From an uncultured Aquimarina sp. (GTDB lineage: Bacteria > Bacteroidota > Bacteroidia > Flavobacteriales > Flavobacteriaceae): 64,000 nt of DNA. The number at the start of each line of letters is the position of its first letter. The first letter of the stretch is position 1. The position numbers were made by a program, and so were the translations under genes. The DNA lies in NCBI GenBank assembly GCA_947498935.1, contig CANMMM010000003.1, positions 124,001-188,000 on the forward strand. Direction: 5' to 3'. Positions 1-5,307 of this stretch are shown piece after piece. A model generated the notes under the pieces. That model saw only the letters and a list, made by a program, of their open reading frames with translations, was not told the DNA's origin and did no database searches.

Positions 1-2073
1 TGCCTGCTTTTTAGCTACCTGGTGTGATAACGACAATGAATATAAATAATGAATTTCTGCTACTTCTATCAAATGCGTTTGATCAGCTATCGGCATCAAT
101 GTTTCGAAAGGCAAGTACTGCAAGGACTGATCTGGAATAATCGTTAACTTTCTTGTACTAGTAGTATCCCACGAGATCGAGATAGGGAACAATTGTCGAT
201 AAATCGTATGCGCTAGTGATTGATACGTAGCCAACTCTTGGGAAGTTTGTAGCGGTTTACGTAATAACTTACGATATGCCTCCAGTGATTGTTGCAGAGC
301 AGCCATCTCTTTTATTCTAAAAAAAACAGGAACTCCCTCTGTACTGTATATACCATATCCATCTGTGTCTGAAAAAATATACGCTATCAAATCCGTGTCC
401 GTTTCCTTTGTATGTGCTATCGCTGCCGAAAAATCCGCTATCTGTATATCTTTTCGATAGGCATAATAAGCAGGAAAACGCGATGCGATACTGTCTAAGA
501 ACGATTCATAGCGCTTTTCTTTTTCAAAAACATTTTGTCGCTGCTCCGCAGCAGAAATCTGATCCTGTTTCGTATCAGTCGCTTTTGCCTGCTGAATATC
601 CTGTAATAATTGGTATTCTCGTTCTTGCATTTGCTCTGGCAAAGCCGCTTGCTTCTTAGCTTGCTCATGGGTGAGTTCTTCTAATAAGGATAGGGATTTA
701 CTTTTTTCCATAAAATAAAAAGCCTGGTCTGGTGCTTTTAATTGATAGCAGATAGATACTGCTAGCGTATACAGATCCACCCCTTTTTCTCGCCAGAAGA
801 ATTTGGTTTGTGTTTCATAACTCGCCAAATGGATCTCATCCATCACCTGATCCGCTACGATAATCGTTTGTAGTGCTTGCTGCAAATAATCGCGATTGCC
901 CTGCAGTTCATACCATTGATACCAAGCATTCGCTTTGTCTTTTAAGTCATTGACCAATGCCGCTTTATCCACTGCCGAAGCGATAGCTACCCCAGTAGGT
1001 AATTGCCGATAATCCTGCGGAACCGTATCACTAAAATTATAATAAATCGCCTTTTGGTAATGCTGTAAAGCGGTCTCCATATCCTGCTGTGTCACATAAT
1101 AATCTCCTAAATTATCATATGCCGCGGTTTCAGTAGGATTGTGTGCCAGTGCTTTCCGAAATAAAGCCACTCCTTTTTGCGGCCGCCCCTGCTTTACATA
1201 GATATACCCCAATGCATTGTACAAAGTGGCAATATGATTTGGATTGGGTGTAGGCAATGATAGCGCTATCTCCAATGCCTTTGCATAATGCTGTATTGCT
1301 TTGGGATATACTGCTAATTCTTCATACACATACCCATAGCGATTCTCGATCACAGTCTGCAATTGCAATTGTTTTTCTTTGGGCAAATGCGTAATCGCAT
1401 GCTCCGCATTTTCTAAATACGCTAGTACTTTTTGATACCGATCCACCGTCTGCGTATAGCGTAATACCCTAGAAAAACTGATATATACACTATACAACTC
1501 TCGGTATAGAGTCGGGTCATCGGATTGCAAGATCATTTGTTCGGCCTCATTCAAGTAGTCCAGCACCTTAAAATAATCCCCGCGTTGCATATAATAATTC
1601 GTAATTCCTATGGTATATGCCTGTACCGTAAATCGATCCTTATGTGATTGTCGAGTCAATTCCTTAAAGGTGTTGAGTGCTGCCAATGCATCCCCCGATT
1701 GTTTATAGAAATAAGCTAGATTATTGTAATTTTTATTCACCAACGTAGGCACCGAATCCCGGTACGGATGTAATAAGGACAATGCCTGCCGATTGTGTAT
1801 AATCGCATTTTTAAAATCATGGTGCTGGTAACAGAATTTGCCCAATTCTCCGTACAAAATCCCGCTGGCAATCGAGTCCTGCGCATGTCTCTCTGCCGTG
1901 AGTAGTGATGTAAATGCTTTCAATTGCTGGGCATACGATACCTCTTCCTGATTACGGATGTCTTCAAATGCGTCTGACAATACTACGCTAGGAGACTGTG
2001 CCAGTATACCCCCCACGCTATAGCCATACAGCCATAGGATACTAATAATGCTAAAAAAATAATGTGTGTGCAT
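1..2073 (-). CDS. Exported TPR-CHAT domain protein (C-terminus beyond left edge)
   Basis: The reading frame is open from an ATG at 2073 to the window edge: 691 codons, no stop. The N-terminus (about residues 1-26) is a Sec-type signal peptide ending near ILAQS. Residues about 40-420 are helical repeats of TPR type, with motifs such as YVKQGRPQKGVALFRKAL and YYVTQQDMETALQHYQKAI. A long acidic/basic helical stretch follows. From about residue 540 the pattern is that of the start of a CHAT (caspase-like) domain: a strand-rich AYIFSDTDGYGIYS segment, then LTIIPDQSLQYLPFETLM. The catalytic His and Cys of CHAT would lie to the left of the window, so activity cannot be judged. It is downstream of the subtilase lipoprotein on the same strand, 213 bp away, and divergent from a sigma/anti-sigma pair. 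An exported CHAT protease acting in the periplasm is the inference. Confidence 0.8.
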   Translation of the reverse strand, partial: MHTHYFFSIISILWLYGYSVGGILAQSPSVVLSDAFEDIRNQEEVSYAQQLKAFTSLLTAERHAQDSIASGILYGELGKFCYQHHDFKNAIIHNRQALSLLHPYRDSVPTLVNKNYNNLAYFYKQSGDALAALNTFKELTRQSHKDRFTVQAYTIGITNYYMQRGDYFKVLDYLNEAEQMILQSDDPTLYRELYSVYISFSRVLRYTQTVDRYQKVLAYLENAEHAITHLPKEKQLQLQTVIENRYGYVYEELAVYPKAIQHYAKALEIALSLPTPNPNHIATLYNALGYIYVKQGRPQKGVALFRKALAHNPTETAAYDNLGDYYVTQQDMETALQHYQKAIYYNFSDTVPQDYRQLPTGVAIASAVDKAALVNDLKDKANAWYQWYELQGNRDYLQQALQTIIVADQVMDEIHLASYETQTKFFWREKGVDLYTLAVSICYQLKAPDQAFYFMEKSKSLSLLEELTHEQAKKQAALPEQMQEREYQLLQDIQQAKATDTKQDQISAAEQRQNVFEKEKRYESFLDSIASRFPAYYAYRKDIQIADFSAAIAHTKETDTDLIAYIFSDTDGYGIYSTEGVPVFFRIKEMAALQQSLEAYRKLLRKPLQTSQELATYQSLAHTIYRQLFPISISWDTTSTRKLTIIPDQSLQYLPFETLMPIADQTHLIEVAEIHYLYSLSLSHQVAKKQA

Positions 2074-2081
2074 AAAAAAAC

Positions 2082-2115
2082 AAAAAGATACCTACTACAA
2101 TGTAAGTATCTTTTT
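2082..2115 (-). terminator. Hairpin plus T-run directly before the TPR-CHAT start codon
   Basis: AAAAAGATAC (2082-2091) pairs with GTATCTTTTT (2106-2115), extended inward by three further pairs after one mismatch around a TACAAT loop. On the minus strand the hairpin is followed by TTTTTG and seven T, then ATG at 2073. The form is that of an intrinsic terminator or attenuator inside the leader. It could equally terminate transcription coming from the subtilase gene. Confidence 0.5.
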
Positions 2116-2118
2116 ATT

Positions 2119-2180
2119 GAAGTGGATTAAACTTTTTAAAATTTGCTATAAAAAAACGATCTTTTGCACCCAAATTTTGC
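2119..2180 (+). repeat. Family-1 palindromic element, left arm only
   Basis: Starts GAAGTGGATTAAACTTTTT and continues through the family motif ACGATCTTTTGCACCCAAAT, then breaks off and is followed within 7 bp by a family-2 element. The right arm and the second terminal repeat are absent. Confidence 0.75.
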
Positions 2181-2186
2181 TATTAT

Positions 2187-2273
2187 GGCGTTCCCCAAGG
2201 GTCGGGCTATCCACTGTATCTTTTTTGGTTTTACAAAAAACCAAAAAAGGATGCCGTTCCTATCCCTAACGCA
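2187..2273 (+). repeat. Family-2 intergenic element
   Basis: Carries the conserved ends GGCGTTCCCCAAGGGTCGGG and CTATCCCTAACGCA. Its middle differs from most other copies: it is a strong hairpin, TTTTTTGGTTTT (2221-2232) against AAAAAACCAAAAAA. It lies between the stop of the subtilase gene and the leader of the CHAT gene. Confidence 0.75.
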
Positions 2274-2286
2274 ATCACATACTCAC

Positions 2287-3564
2287 TTAATGCCCCAGCA
2301 CAGGCAGGTAACTCTCTATAACCACATCCGTAAAGCCTACAGGTAATAAAGTGCTATTCGGTGTAGCCTGCTGGTATAATAAGGTTTGTATTTCATCTTT
2401 TGGGTAGTTTGATTGCAAAGCCGCTTTCGCCGATACCAAGGCAGCTGCATACGAAGTTCCTTTCAGCACATAAGGATTCCCCTTATAATCCACAAAAGAA
2501 AACCCATCTTGCGCTAGAAAATCTACAGATAGTATTCCATAATTAGAATAAGGAGTTTTTACAAACGTACCACCCTCTACCTGCTCGCATGCCCCTACAC
2601 TAATCACATGCTTCTCTTGGATATTAGAAGGATAATGAGGTGTTTTATCCGTATTTGCATGACTATTCCCTGCTGAGGCTACATGTAATATGTCCGTGTT
2701 TCTATGAATCAGGCGTTCTAAGATCGTACTTCTAGCGCCATACCACCCAAAACTCATATTCATTACTCTTACTTCTGGTTTCGAGGCAGCGTACATATAC
2801 CCACATAAGATATTAAACGTACTTCCCTTTCCTTGATCATCAAATATTTTTACAGGTAGCAGTGTATAGGAGTCAAAACCAGCCTTGCGTAATTGAGACT
2901 GAATGGTATGCGTAATCGCCGACCCATGCCCGTGATCATCAAAAGGATCTGGATCTTGGTTCACAAAATCCCAACCACTAATCTCTTTTTTCTGTGCATC
3001 ACAGCTGATAGGGTTTGCTGAGTTATTATATAAGAAAGGTTCTCGTTTCTTAAATACAGAAAGATCAATCCCCGTATCCAATATCGCGATAGTAGTCTCT
3101 ACTGGGTAGGGATACACCGCAGCCTGCAATTGAGTAGCAGTATGTGCTGCCGAGGTATTGGCTGCGATTTGTAACGTATATTCGTGCGTATAATTAAATA
3201 AAAAATCTACGCCCTCTACACCGCCTTCTTGGGCAATATCACCTTTACGCCCTTCGATATCTACACCCGGCGCAAAAGTCCATGTCTCTAATGAGTTGTT
3301 ACTACAATCGCAGCGTCGAGAGCGCTGTACCTTATAGCGTGCTCGCAAATCTTCTTTAAGGTTTTCGGATACCTCATCTTTAAACAACACAATCAAGGTA
3401 TTTTTAGAAGGTCTAGGAAATTTGGGCAAAAACTTTCGTTGCGATTTTTCTACTGTTACTAAGGCTGATGTTTCGGCTGCTCCATCAAAATCTGTATCAA
3501 CAGTACAACTGGTCATAAAAATAAATATGATAAAAAAGCTGAGTAATAGTTGTGAAGTTTTCAT
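2287..3564 (-). CDS. Subtilisin-like S8 serine peptidase, lipoprotein
   Basis: A 425-residue secreted protease. Residues 1-20 form a lipoprotein signal peptide with lipobox FMTSC (Cys20), so it should be anchored to a membrane on the periplasmic or surface side. Residues about 55-130 look like a short inhibitor/pro-region, with a C-x-C pair at 85-87 followed by LETW. The catalytic domain shows all the S8 blocks: Asp163 in AILDTGID, His213 in DDHGHGSA, oxyanion Asn300 in SAGN, and Ser371 in KGTSYAAA. The triad is intact, so it is predicted active. It is read towards the TPR-CHAT gene and is divergent from the sigma factor at 3925. The substrate is unknown; a neighbouring membrane-bound TPR protein is a candidate by position only. 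Confidence 0.9.
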   Translation of the reverse strand: MKTSQLLLSFFIIFIFMTSCTVDTDFDGAAETSALVTVEKSQRKFLPKFPRPSKNTLIVLFKDEVSENLKEDLRARYKVQRSRRCDCSNNSLETWTFAPGVDIEGRKGDIAQEGGVEGVDFLFNYTHEYTLQIAANTSAAHTATQLQAAVYPYPVETTIAILDTGIDLSVFKKREPFLYNNSANPISCDAQKKEISGWDFVNQDPDPFDDHGHGSAITHTIQSQLRKAGFDSYTLLPVKIFDDQGKGSTFNILCGYMYAASKPEVRVMNMSFGWYGARSTILERLIHRNTDILHVASAGNSHANTDKTPHYPSNIQEKHVISVGACEQVEGGTFVKTPYSNYGILSVDFLAQDGFSFVDYKGNPYVLKGTSYAAALVSAKAALQSNYPKDEIQTLLYQQATPNSTLLPVGFTDVVIESYLPVLGH

Positions 3565-3924
3565 TTTGAAATTAATTTTTAAGTACTATTTTTATCCTAT
3601 AGAGCGAAAAATAAAAATTCATTACCCTGAAGTGGTTCAAACTTTTTGCAATTAGCTATAAAAACGATCTTTTGCACCCAAATTTTGTGATTTTTGAGTT
3701 CCGTAGCGCTGCTATGTAACAAAAAAATTACTGTATTTGGTCACAAAATCTTGCGATTTTCGCTAAAATCGAAAAAGTTTATACCACTTCCCTATTATTT
3801 TTCTAAACCCATGCATTGAAGTAGTTTTTCCTGCTTTGCAATAGTTGTTCCCAGCTTAGGAGTTAATACCGCTCTAAAAGCTATTCGCTCTAATCGCTAA
3901 ATTTATAGAATTAATCGTTCCTGG
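3565..3924. other. Divergent intergenic region between subtilase and sigma factor genes
   Basis: 360 bp holding one complete family-1 element (3629-3790). Roughly 130 bp are left on the sigma side and 64 bp on the protease side for promoters. I see no good TAnnTTTG match on either side, so transcription may depend on a non-housekeeping sigma factor, possibly the one encoded next door. That is inference. Confidence 0.5.
3629..3790 (+). repeat. Family-1 palindromic element (MITE-like), full length
   Basis: 162 bp. The ends are inverted repeats, GAAGTGGTTCAAACTTTTT at the left and AAAAAGTTTATACCACTTC at the right. The two halves are imperfect complements up to the apex TAGCGCTGCTA, so an RNA copy would fold into one long hairpin. 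It is flanked by a perfect 3-bp direct repeat, CCT (3626-3628 and 3791-3793). It sits between the divergent subtilase and sigma-factor genes. Confidence 0.9.
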
Positions 3925-4491
3925 ATGAACAGAACAAAACCGCAAGCGGTTGCTGCAGAAACATATATACAAGCACTTATTAATAAAGATAGTACAATTG
4001 TATATGATATTTACCAACGTTTTTTTCCAAAAACATTACAGTATGTGACCCAAAACCAAGGTACCGAAGAACAAGCCAAAGATGTATTTCAGGAATCCTT
4101 ATTACATATCATTGTAGGGTCGCAAAAAAAGCGGCTTACGATCCAAAATTTTGAGGCCTATTTATTTACGGTCTGTAAAAATATGTGGAGACGAGAAGCA
4201 GAAAGTCAAAAAAAACGGGTAATATATTCGGAGTTTCCTACTCTTATAGATAAAGATACTGATATGGCACTATTTGCATTAGAACAAGAACGACAAGAAA
4301 TCTATAGAGATCAGTTCCAATTACTGTCTACGAATTGCCAAGAGATATTAGCGCTTTTCTTTAATAACACTTCCTACGAAGCGATTGTAGAAGAGCTATC
4401 CTATGCCTCTATCAATACCGCTAGACAGCGCATCTTTAAGTGTAGAAATAAATTAGTAAGCCTTATCAAAAAAGCTATACATCATTATTAA
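3925..4491 (+). CDS. ECF-type RNA polymerase sigma factor
   Basis: 188 residues. Region 2 is recognisable at about residues 25-90, with the core-binding segment AKDVFQESLLHII (51-63) and the DNA-melting part ending LFTVCKNMWRRE. Region 4 is at about 130-185, with the helix-turn-helix TSYEAIVEELSYASINTARQ and the basic tail FKCRNKLVSLIKKA. There is no region 3, as in ECF sigma factors. It is followed after 15 bp by the membrane TPR protein at 4507, the usual place for an anti-sigma factor. It is divergent from the subtilase/CHAT genes. The regulon is unknown; autoregulation and control of the divergent proteases are reasonable guesses. Confidence 0.88.
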   Translation: MNRTKPQAVAAETYIQALINKDSTIVYDIYQRFFPKTLQYVTQNQGTEEQAKDVFQESLLHIIVGSQKKRLTIQNFEAYLFTVCKNMWRREAESQKKRVIYSEFPTLIDKDTDMALFALEQERQEIYRDQFQLLSTNCQEILALFFNNTSYEAIVEELSYASINTARQRIFKCRNKLVSLIKKAIHHY

Positions 4492-4506
4492 AAAAACAGT
4501 ACAGTC

Positions 4507-5307
4507 GTGGATTTTGAAGATACTTTATACAATACCATCGATGCATACCTATCTGGCAGCTTATCCGCTACGGAGCAGCAAGCATTCGAGCAGGAAATAA
4601 CGCAAAACCCTGAAATAAAAAAAGAAATAGAACTCTATCAGTCACTCCAGCAGCATCTACGAGGTGACTGGACACGATTAGACCCTGCCTTACACACAGA
4701 AGAGCTTAAAAACCTGAGTGCATATCGTAGGAGTAACGAGTTTGTAGACATCAAGCAACATCTAGAACAGGTAGGAACTACCTATTTCGAACAGCCAACT
4801 CCTACCACGAAACGGAGATGGTGGTACTACGCCGCTGCCATTGCGGTATTGGTGATAGGTATGGTCTCTGTACAAATGTTTACCACTCCTACTACTGATG
4901 CGCTGTATGCGGAGTATGCGACATGGAAAGAATTGCCTTCGCTAACTGTACAGGGAGACGACGCAACTACAGTAGCTCAGGGGGAAGCTTTATTCTATAA
5001 AAAACAATATCGAGAGGCAATTCGCATTTTTGAAACAGCACAAACTACCGACACATATCCAACCATATGGATGTATTTAGGTGCCTCTTATTTAGAGATG
5101 GGCAATACAGAAAAAGCCATTGCACTATTCCAACAATTAAAAGATTCGAATACATTAGACAGCCCAAAAGCGAACTGGTATCTAGCACTCGCCTATCTCA
5201 AAACAGGGAATAACGAACAAAGTAAGCAAGCATTACAACAATTAATATCCACTAAGAATAATTTTAAGCAAGCAGAAGCAATACAACTGCTCGATGCGTT
5301 GGAATAA
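4507..5307 (+). CDS. Single-pass membrane TPR protein, probable anti-sigma factor
   Basis: 266 residues from a GTG start 15 bp after the sigma-factor stop; the same operon. Residues 1-50 resemble the N-terminal zone of Bacteroidota anti-sigma proteins (IDAYLSGSLSATEQQAFE). KRRWW at 102-106 precedes one transmembrane helix at about 106-125, so the N-terminus should be cytoplasmic and the C-terminus periplasmic. Residues about 155-266 are TPR-like (ALFYKKQYREAIRIFE, LGASYLEMGNTEKAIALF, LALAYLKTGNNEQSKQAL). No zinc-binding HxxxCxxC motif is present, so this is not a classical ZAS anti-sigma. The arrangement suggests that a periplasmic signal or cleavage is passed to the sigma factor. The anti-sigma role is inferred from position and topology. 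Confidence 0.7.
   Translation: MDFEDTLYNTIDAYLSGSLSATEQQAFEQEITQNPEIKKEIELYQSLQQHLRGDWTRLDPALHTEELKNLSAYRRSNEFVDIKQHLEQVGTTYFEQPTPTTKRRWWYYAAAIAVLVIGMVSVQMFTTPTTDALYAEYATWKELPSLTVQGDDATTVAQGEALFYKKQYREAIRIFETAQTTDTYPTIWMYLGASYLEMGNTEKAIALFQQLKDSNTLDSPKANWYLALAYLKTGNNEQSKQALQQLISTKNNFKQAEAIQLLDALE

Follow-up and report, generated by a model that had tools for sequence, protein, structure and literature searches.

In Escherichia coli, sigma-E is controlled through RseA, DegS and RseP, RseA being a single-pass anti-sigma factor with cytoplasmic and periplasmic parts and DegS a PDZ protease of the trypsin-like kind. A protease also acts on the inhibitor of a sigma factor in Craspase, a type III-E CRISPR system that comprises Csx29 (a protein of tetratricopeptide repeats, TPRs, and a CHAT domain), Csx30 and CASP-sigma (PMC10028731, in the sections available to us). 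In a type III CRISPR system, CalpL/CalpT/CalpS, the inhibitor of an extracytoplasmic function (ECF) sigma factor is cut under CRISPR control (PMC11417357, likewise in part), and systems have been described whose constant parts are EACC2 and a caspase domain and in which an ECF sigma factor and a TPR protein occur as neighbours (PMC8195603, in the portion available). Here we analyse a cassette of an uncultured Aquimarina sp. in which a TPR-CHAT protease and an S8 subtilase diverge from an ECF sigma factor and its presumed membrane anti-sigma factor. It lies at the left end of a window of 64,000 nucleotides, positions 124001-188000 of contig C3 (G000:C3) of a 4.77 Mb genome. Positions in the following list are those of the window unless a contig (C) or locus (L) is named.

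1 to 2073, minus strand: TPR-CHAT protease, of which the window holds the N-terminal 691 of 931 residues (apparent signal peptide, TPRs and the start of the CHAT domain)
C3:123278-126073 (L006:11278-14073), minus strand: complete TPR-CHAT gene, with His757/Cys795, a C-terminal transmembrane helix and its stop codon left of the window
2287 to 3564, minus strand: S8 subtilase of 425 residues, with lipobox Cys20, an I9-like propeptide domain at 52-126 (CxC at 85/87) and Asp163/His213/Ser371
3565 to 3924: divergent intergenic region, with TTACCC at 3622 (plus strand), 303 bp ahead of the sigma start
3925 to 4491, plus strand: ECF sigma factor of 188 residues (Pfam region 2, NCBIfam sigma70-ECF, alignment with a solved structure)
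4507 to 5307, plus strand: presumed membrane anti-sigma factor of 266 residues with a GTG start (sub-cut-off anti-sigma model, AlphaFold); predicted layout, a cytoplasmic helical domain (5-94), a transmembrane helix (105-125) and, in the periplasm, a coil (138-154, containing LPSLTVQG) and a TPR domain (155-265)

An initial annotation, made from the letters of the window, had read the four genes with the same coordinates and strands, and their products matched the expected families in Pfam and NCBIfam.

Like Craspase, this cassette encodes a TPR-CHAT protein with a His/Cys dyad, the CHAT domains of the two being related by sequence, together with what we presume to be the inhibitor of an ECF-type sigma factor. 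Craspase, however, is an RNA-guided complex with Cas7-11 and its substrate Csx30, whereas no long Cas-type gene is present here (the open reading frames, ORFs, listed for L006:7000-17400 include none above 931 residues; the search did not extend to other parts of the genome). The TPR-CHAT protein of the cassette, moreover, bears an apparent signal peptide and a C-terminal transmembrane helix, and the presumed inhibitor is predicted to be a single-pass membrane protein with TPRs. With CalpL/CalpT/CalpS the cassette would share a protease, an anti-sigma substrate and an ECF sigma factor in one system; according to the sections available, CalpL is a Lon-SAVED protease switched by cA4, and Pfam detected neither a Lon nor a SAVED domain in the four proteins of the window (CHAT scanned as its window part). 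The systems of PMC8195603 also place a caspase-superfamily protease, an ECF sigma factor and a TPR protein side by side, but the available portion of that report mentions neither an envelope topology nor an anti-sigma factor. The module differs from all three in being apparently exported and membrane-tethered and in having a membrane anti-sigma factor. The resemblance to RseA lies in the single-pass layout with cytoplasmic and periplasmic parts, for which stepwise proteolysis would be expected; here, in contrast, a CHAT protein of caspase fold is the candidate for site-1 cleavage, the periplasmic part consists of TPRs, and neither the ORFs nor Pfam revealed a PDZ protease of the DegS type among the genes of the cassette, to which this search was confined. 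A Phocaeicola sigma/anti-sigma system was considered as a relative and set aside, as its anti-sigma factor ends in an outer-membrane barrel (PMC9308784, in the part available). Among the matches listed in the open-access literature, none described a TPR-CHAT/ECF module of the Bacteroidota.

The CHAT, sigma and anti-sigma genes very likely constitute a conserved functional unit. S8 (E up to 1e-20), sigma (1e-6) and CHAT (1e-20) were each searched for once in 120 genomes of the same family, the Flavobacteriaceae, and gave matches in 12, 65 and 52 genomes, respectively. A sigma gene lay within 10 kb of 61 of the 77 CHAT matches, where about 1.2 were expected from random placement, and within 5 kb of 46, where 0.7 were expected; these expectations assume 3.6 Mb for every genome except that of the window, and the 77 matches omit G076:C1:458546-459751, which belongs to a CHAT gene already counted by its first half. 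The sigma genes closest to that of the window adjoined a CHAT gene in 15 of 17 cases; of the other two, L122 lies where its contig stops and already shows the lipoprotein gene in place, and L106 is a true exception. In 80 named loci, 54 of 90 CHAT ORFs had a sigma gene within five ORFs (42 of 58 away from the locus ends), and in a sample of 118 genomes from the phylum, whose 79 CHAT rows were merged into 76 loci, at least 25 of these loci were linked to a sigma gene against 1.1 expected, including at least 12 of the 59 outside the family. The cassette was found in Aquimarina, Tenacibaculum, Bizionia, Maribacter, Psychroserpens, Dokdonia, Chitinophagales, Saprospiraceae, Runella, Roseivirga and others, so that the three genes do recur together in the Bacteroidota; the initial annotation had proposed to examine neighbourhood conservation for all four families. 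The 84 distinct cassettes comprised 44 divergent, 25 convergent and 15 co-directional ones (sigma comes first in 10 and last in 5). As the genes are adjacent in each of these four arrangements, gene order seems to have been rearranged repeatedly, with the link between CHAT and sigma retained. The genome of the window itself carries a second four-gene cassette at C3:1556-7165, alike in order and strands, with four proteins 33-39% identical to those described here, and on contig C2 a third one, a single operon of sigma, anti-sigma and TPR-CHAT without S8.

The CHAT reading frame is open at the window edge, and 723 further bases to the left complete a protein of 931 residues in which an apparent signal peptide, called by eye, is followed by TPRs, the CHAT domain, a hydrophobic helix (901-919) and a basic tail. 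The extension supplied the His-Cys dyad that had been left outside the window, as H757 in LLHLATHA and C795 in LVVLDACETG. The Pfam CHAT family (PF12770) matched the window part at 5.3e-7 and, on the genome, reached 170.9 bits against a cut-off of 24, which places the protein in this family. The basic tail stays on the cytoplasmic side of a membrane helix by the positive-inside rule, so that the TPRs and the CHAT domain should face the periplasm as parts of a membrane-tethered protease; the earlier proposal of an exported protein agrees with the apparent signal peptide and is supplemented by the C-terminal helix, which it had not mentioned. In the family set, His and Cys were kept in 38 of 38 aligned CHAT proteins, distant ones included, and so was the C-terminal helix, an N-terminal hydrophobic segment being flagged by a crude hydropathy scan in 27 (the 40 family regions were chosen by hand from the matches, and counts on them are not those of a random sample). 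Among the 90 named CHAT proteins, 32 of which lie near a locus end, the C-terminal helix was found in 66 and the N-terminal segment in 65.

A profile of 19 CHAT-domain sequences matched six PDB sequences at E up to 1, five of which are named "CHAT domain protein" (the best, 8d9f, at E 0.0017), the sixth being 8rot at E 0.005. We take the entries so named to be Craspase TPR-CHAT chains, and each of the two alignments printed pairs the conserved His with a His, and the conserved Cys with a Cys, of the PDB chain. The domain of the window protein alone gave one match, at the level of noise (0.76), and with a profile of the whole protein the best 60 of 232 matches were TPR-type proteins by name. 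The CHAT domain is, by profile comparison, distantly similar to the Craspase type, and the analogy to Csx29, at first regarded as structural only, extends to a remote sequence relationship.

The sigma factor scored 44.8 with NCBIfam sigma70-ECF (TIGR02937; cut-off 42.9) and 21.2 bits with Pfam region 2 (2.5e-4), under the cut-off of 24; positions 3-176 of the 189 in its profile aligned with a solved ECF sigma factor, so that it belongs to this class over regions 2 to 4. The downstream gene would encode its anti-sigma factor, judging from its place in the operon and from anti-sigma models matched below their cut-offs, such as that of NCBIfam, which reached an E of 2.5e-8 yet 34.2 bits against a cut-off of 100. 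AlphaFold (mean pLDDT 84) predicts a helical cytoplasmic domain, a transmembrane helix at 105-125, modelled at low confidence (blocks of 49-73), a short helix, the coil at 138-154 and the TPRs, a layout of the RseA type. Pfam recognizes TPRs in both repeat proteins, and with the predicted topologies the TPR domain of the anti-sigma factor would share one compartment, the periplasm, with the protease domain of CHAT, in line with the initial annotation.

A comparison of 82 anti-sigma proteins (which, like the 28 S8 rows mentioned below, include at least the repeats L084/L125 and L090/L150, the same place twice, and the near copies L130/L148) revealed a conserved periplasmic column, at a median of 26 residues past the transmembrane helix, where R was counted 57 times, K 9 times and Q 7 times among 79 (R or K in 66). 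In 62 of 80 the next residue is G or S, the stretch is modelled as coil, and in the clade of the window it reads roughly LYxxYxxxxxLPSLxxRG. Proteases of clan CD often cleave on the C-terminal side of Arg or Lys, a preference that makes the stretch, with its conserved Arg/Lys, a candidate site-1 cut.

Together, these results led us to propose a CRISPR-free, envelope-facing module in which CHAT acts upstream, cutting the anti-sigma factor to control the ECF sigma factor, a reading to which we assign a probability of about 0.5. The cytoplasmic helical domain of the anti-sigma factor would hold sigma at the inner membrane, beside an exported TPR-CHAT protein anchored by its C-terminal helix with the caspase-fold domain in the periplasm. 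CHAT would be switched on by a signal on its TPRs or by a lipoprotein encoded beside it, either S8 with its propeptide or a propeptide-like domain alone. It would then cut the anti-sigma factor in the conserved stretch between the transmembrane helix and the TPR domain (site 1), and general intramembrane and cytoplasmic proteases would finish the degradation, freeing sigma. More tentatively, and with the odds clearly against the full claim, the periplasmic CHAT proteins of the Bacteroidota might be dedicated site-1 proteases with exchangeable lipoprotein inputs (an S8 zymogen, a lone propeptide-like domain or others) and the Csx29/Csx30/sigma arm of CRISPR a cytoplasmic offshoot of them. To our knowledge, few bacterial caspase-fold proteases have known substrates, and those found tied to sigma factors have so far been described in CRISPR or conflict systems. 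If the proposal is correct, it would supply a defined candidate substrate for a CHAT protease, a widespread module would give caspase-fold proteases an everyday role in envelope signalling, and the origin of the sigma arm of Craspase could be sought in this module.

Several observations weigh against this proposal. The anti-sigma factor of the window itself has Gln at the conserved column, and six anti-sigma proteins without a nearby CHAT gene show the same stretch, with R or K in five and a gap in one, so that the stretch may be structural instead of a cut site. Of all sigma matches (E up to 1e-6), 60 of 129 had a CHAT gene within 10 kb and 69 had none, so that the linkage to CHAT does not extend to the sigma family at large. 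Conversely, 36 of the 90 named CHAT ORFs had no sigma gene within five ORFs (20 of the 36 lie near a locus end), and 51 of the 76 phylum loci had none among the matches listed. The distance correlation between CHAT and anti-sigma (0.497) is lower than that between sigma and anti-sigma (0.815) and could be explained by shared descent alone. Finally, the genome of the window contains two stand-alone TPR-CHAT genes without a sigma gene near (L007:5929-8811 and L008:6552-9671) and sigma/anti-sigma pairs without CHAT nearby (L106 and L112), which might pair in trans.

The strongest alternative is that CHAT and S8 are outputs, sigma being released in some other way and inducing envelope proteases that break down foreign or damaged proteins or bring about cell death. 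Genes next to an ECF sigma factor are commonly under its control, the divergent arrangement is the commonest (44 of 84) and S8 resembles an ordinary subtilase zymogen; adjacency is nevertheless kept in the 25 convergent cassettes, where the upstream region is not in common. The distribution of GTTACCC within 200 bp upstream also bears on this point: it occurs in sense ahead of 20 of 86 sigma genes (for instance in L092, L107 and L126) and 9 of 1,220 other ORFs, and before none of the 107 CHAT operons separate from sigma. In antisense it precedes 14 of these 107 operons and 35 of the 1,220 other ORFs, and in divergent cassettes the antisense copy belongs to the sigma gene's own upstream region. 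If this element were the promoter element of sigma itself, a putative assignment, CHAT would not be a sigma target, and the pattern weakly fits CHAT as input instead. Of this element the window has just TTACCC, which at 3622 lies a long way from the sigma start. A two-box ECF promoter common to both divergent operons was also sought, but counts of gapped words gave A/T-rich words only; TTACCC, the sole G/C-bearing element, had no fixed second box, so that we claim no promoter, and it was not found in the available part of a paper on Flavobacterium psychrophilum promoters (PMC9723704). On this evidence we consider the output alternative unlikely, if by no means negligible.

It is improbable that CHAT is a non-proteolytic receptor whose body docks on the TPR domain of the anti-sigma factor and alters the hold of the latter on sigma: both partners carry TPRs predicted to be periplasmic, but the retention of His and Cys in all 38 aligned CHAT proteins points to catalysis.

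Slightly less probable still is that the site-1 cut is made by the S8 lipoprotein, with CHAT as a second, accessory protease. In favour of this idea, 27 of 28 S8 rows have the triad residues (the remaining row is truncated by the end of its contig), and 11 of the 13 S8 matches adjoin CHAT; against it, S8 occurs in 12 of the 120 genomes compared with 52 for CHAT, and in other cassettes its slot holds a small protein. S8 is therefore optional in the cassette, and elsewhere its slot may hold a small propeptide-like lipoprotein or another accessory. The two proteases, which the initial annotation had taken together as the core of the module, have to be separated: the sigma pair is kept without S8, this protease being replaced in a number of relatives, while its tie to CHAT holds among the closest sigma genes and is lost over all sigma matches.

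An anti-phage or CRISPR-linked module like Craspase is very improbable, for although the CHAT domain is distantly similar to the Craspase type (E 0.0017) and Craspase, too, has a sigma factor as its end point (PMC10028731, in the sections available), the ORFs listed for the locus include none longer than CHAT, the proteins are apparently exported, and PADLOC gave only generic TPR and subtilase matches, a weak match of IetS to S8 (0.004) and BovA (1.6e-10) for a paralogous CHAT protein, which leaves the self/non-self role suggested earlier without support.

As for the proposed input to CHAT, the S8 protease of the window is intact, as first read, with D163, H213, N300 and S371 all in place (Pfam S8, 1.6e-25). 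Its N-terminal domain had no Pfam match and is a propeptide by homology and by the fold of its predicted structure, which we take to be I9-like; with the triad, this makes the protein an S8 subtilase with an I9-type propeptide. Compared with the pro-subtilases ProN-Tk-SP (3afg) and pro-Tk-subtilisin (2e1p), it is a lipoprotein with CxC in the propeptide, and its relatives carry propeptide-like small proteins in the S8 gene slot. When all 16 aligned small lipoproteins were compared with the S8 propeptide, hhalign gave a probability of 94 (E 1e-7); the 11 weakest alone gave 15 (E 0.0017) with the register unchanged, and eight other companion lipoproteins gave E 0.42. Comparisons in which signal peptides were retained overstate the match, and the alignment omits L087 and L091, unlike by eye, and small ORFs ahead of CHAT such as those of L130, L135, L138, L145 and L148. 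Pfam had no match for three of the small slot lipoproteins (L122, L092 and L090). These small proteins would represent a protease propeptide domain persisting as a stand-alone part. That S8 or a propeptide-like lipoprotein is the input or brake of CHAT is somewhat less likely than not.

Besides the lipobox Cys, residues Cys 85, 87 and 254 of S8 are invariant columns in 22 aligned homologues and may provide a disulfide or bind a metal. Another family of companion lipoproteins, of 225-237 residues, precedes CHAT in L101, L103, L105 and L120; that of L103, the sole member scanned, had no Pfam match. In four loci a retropepsin-like aspartyl protease gene adjoins CHAT on the same strand (L107:4239-4685, L108:3444-3887, L162:10163-10618 and L192:9992-10477; Pfam for L107), so that another protease type can occupy the neighbourhood. 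In seven loci (L094, L097, L098, L133, L137, L139 and L141; Pfam run on L097 and L094) a VKOR/thioredoxin/C39-like membrane protein of 521-541 residues is encoded directly after CHAT on the same strand, and in four of them a C39-type ABC exporter comes next.

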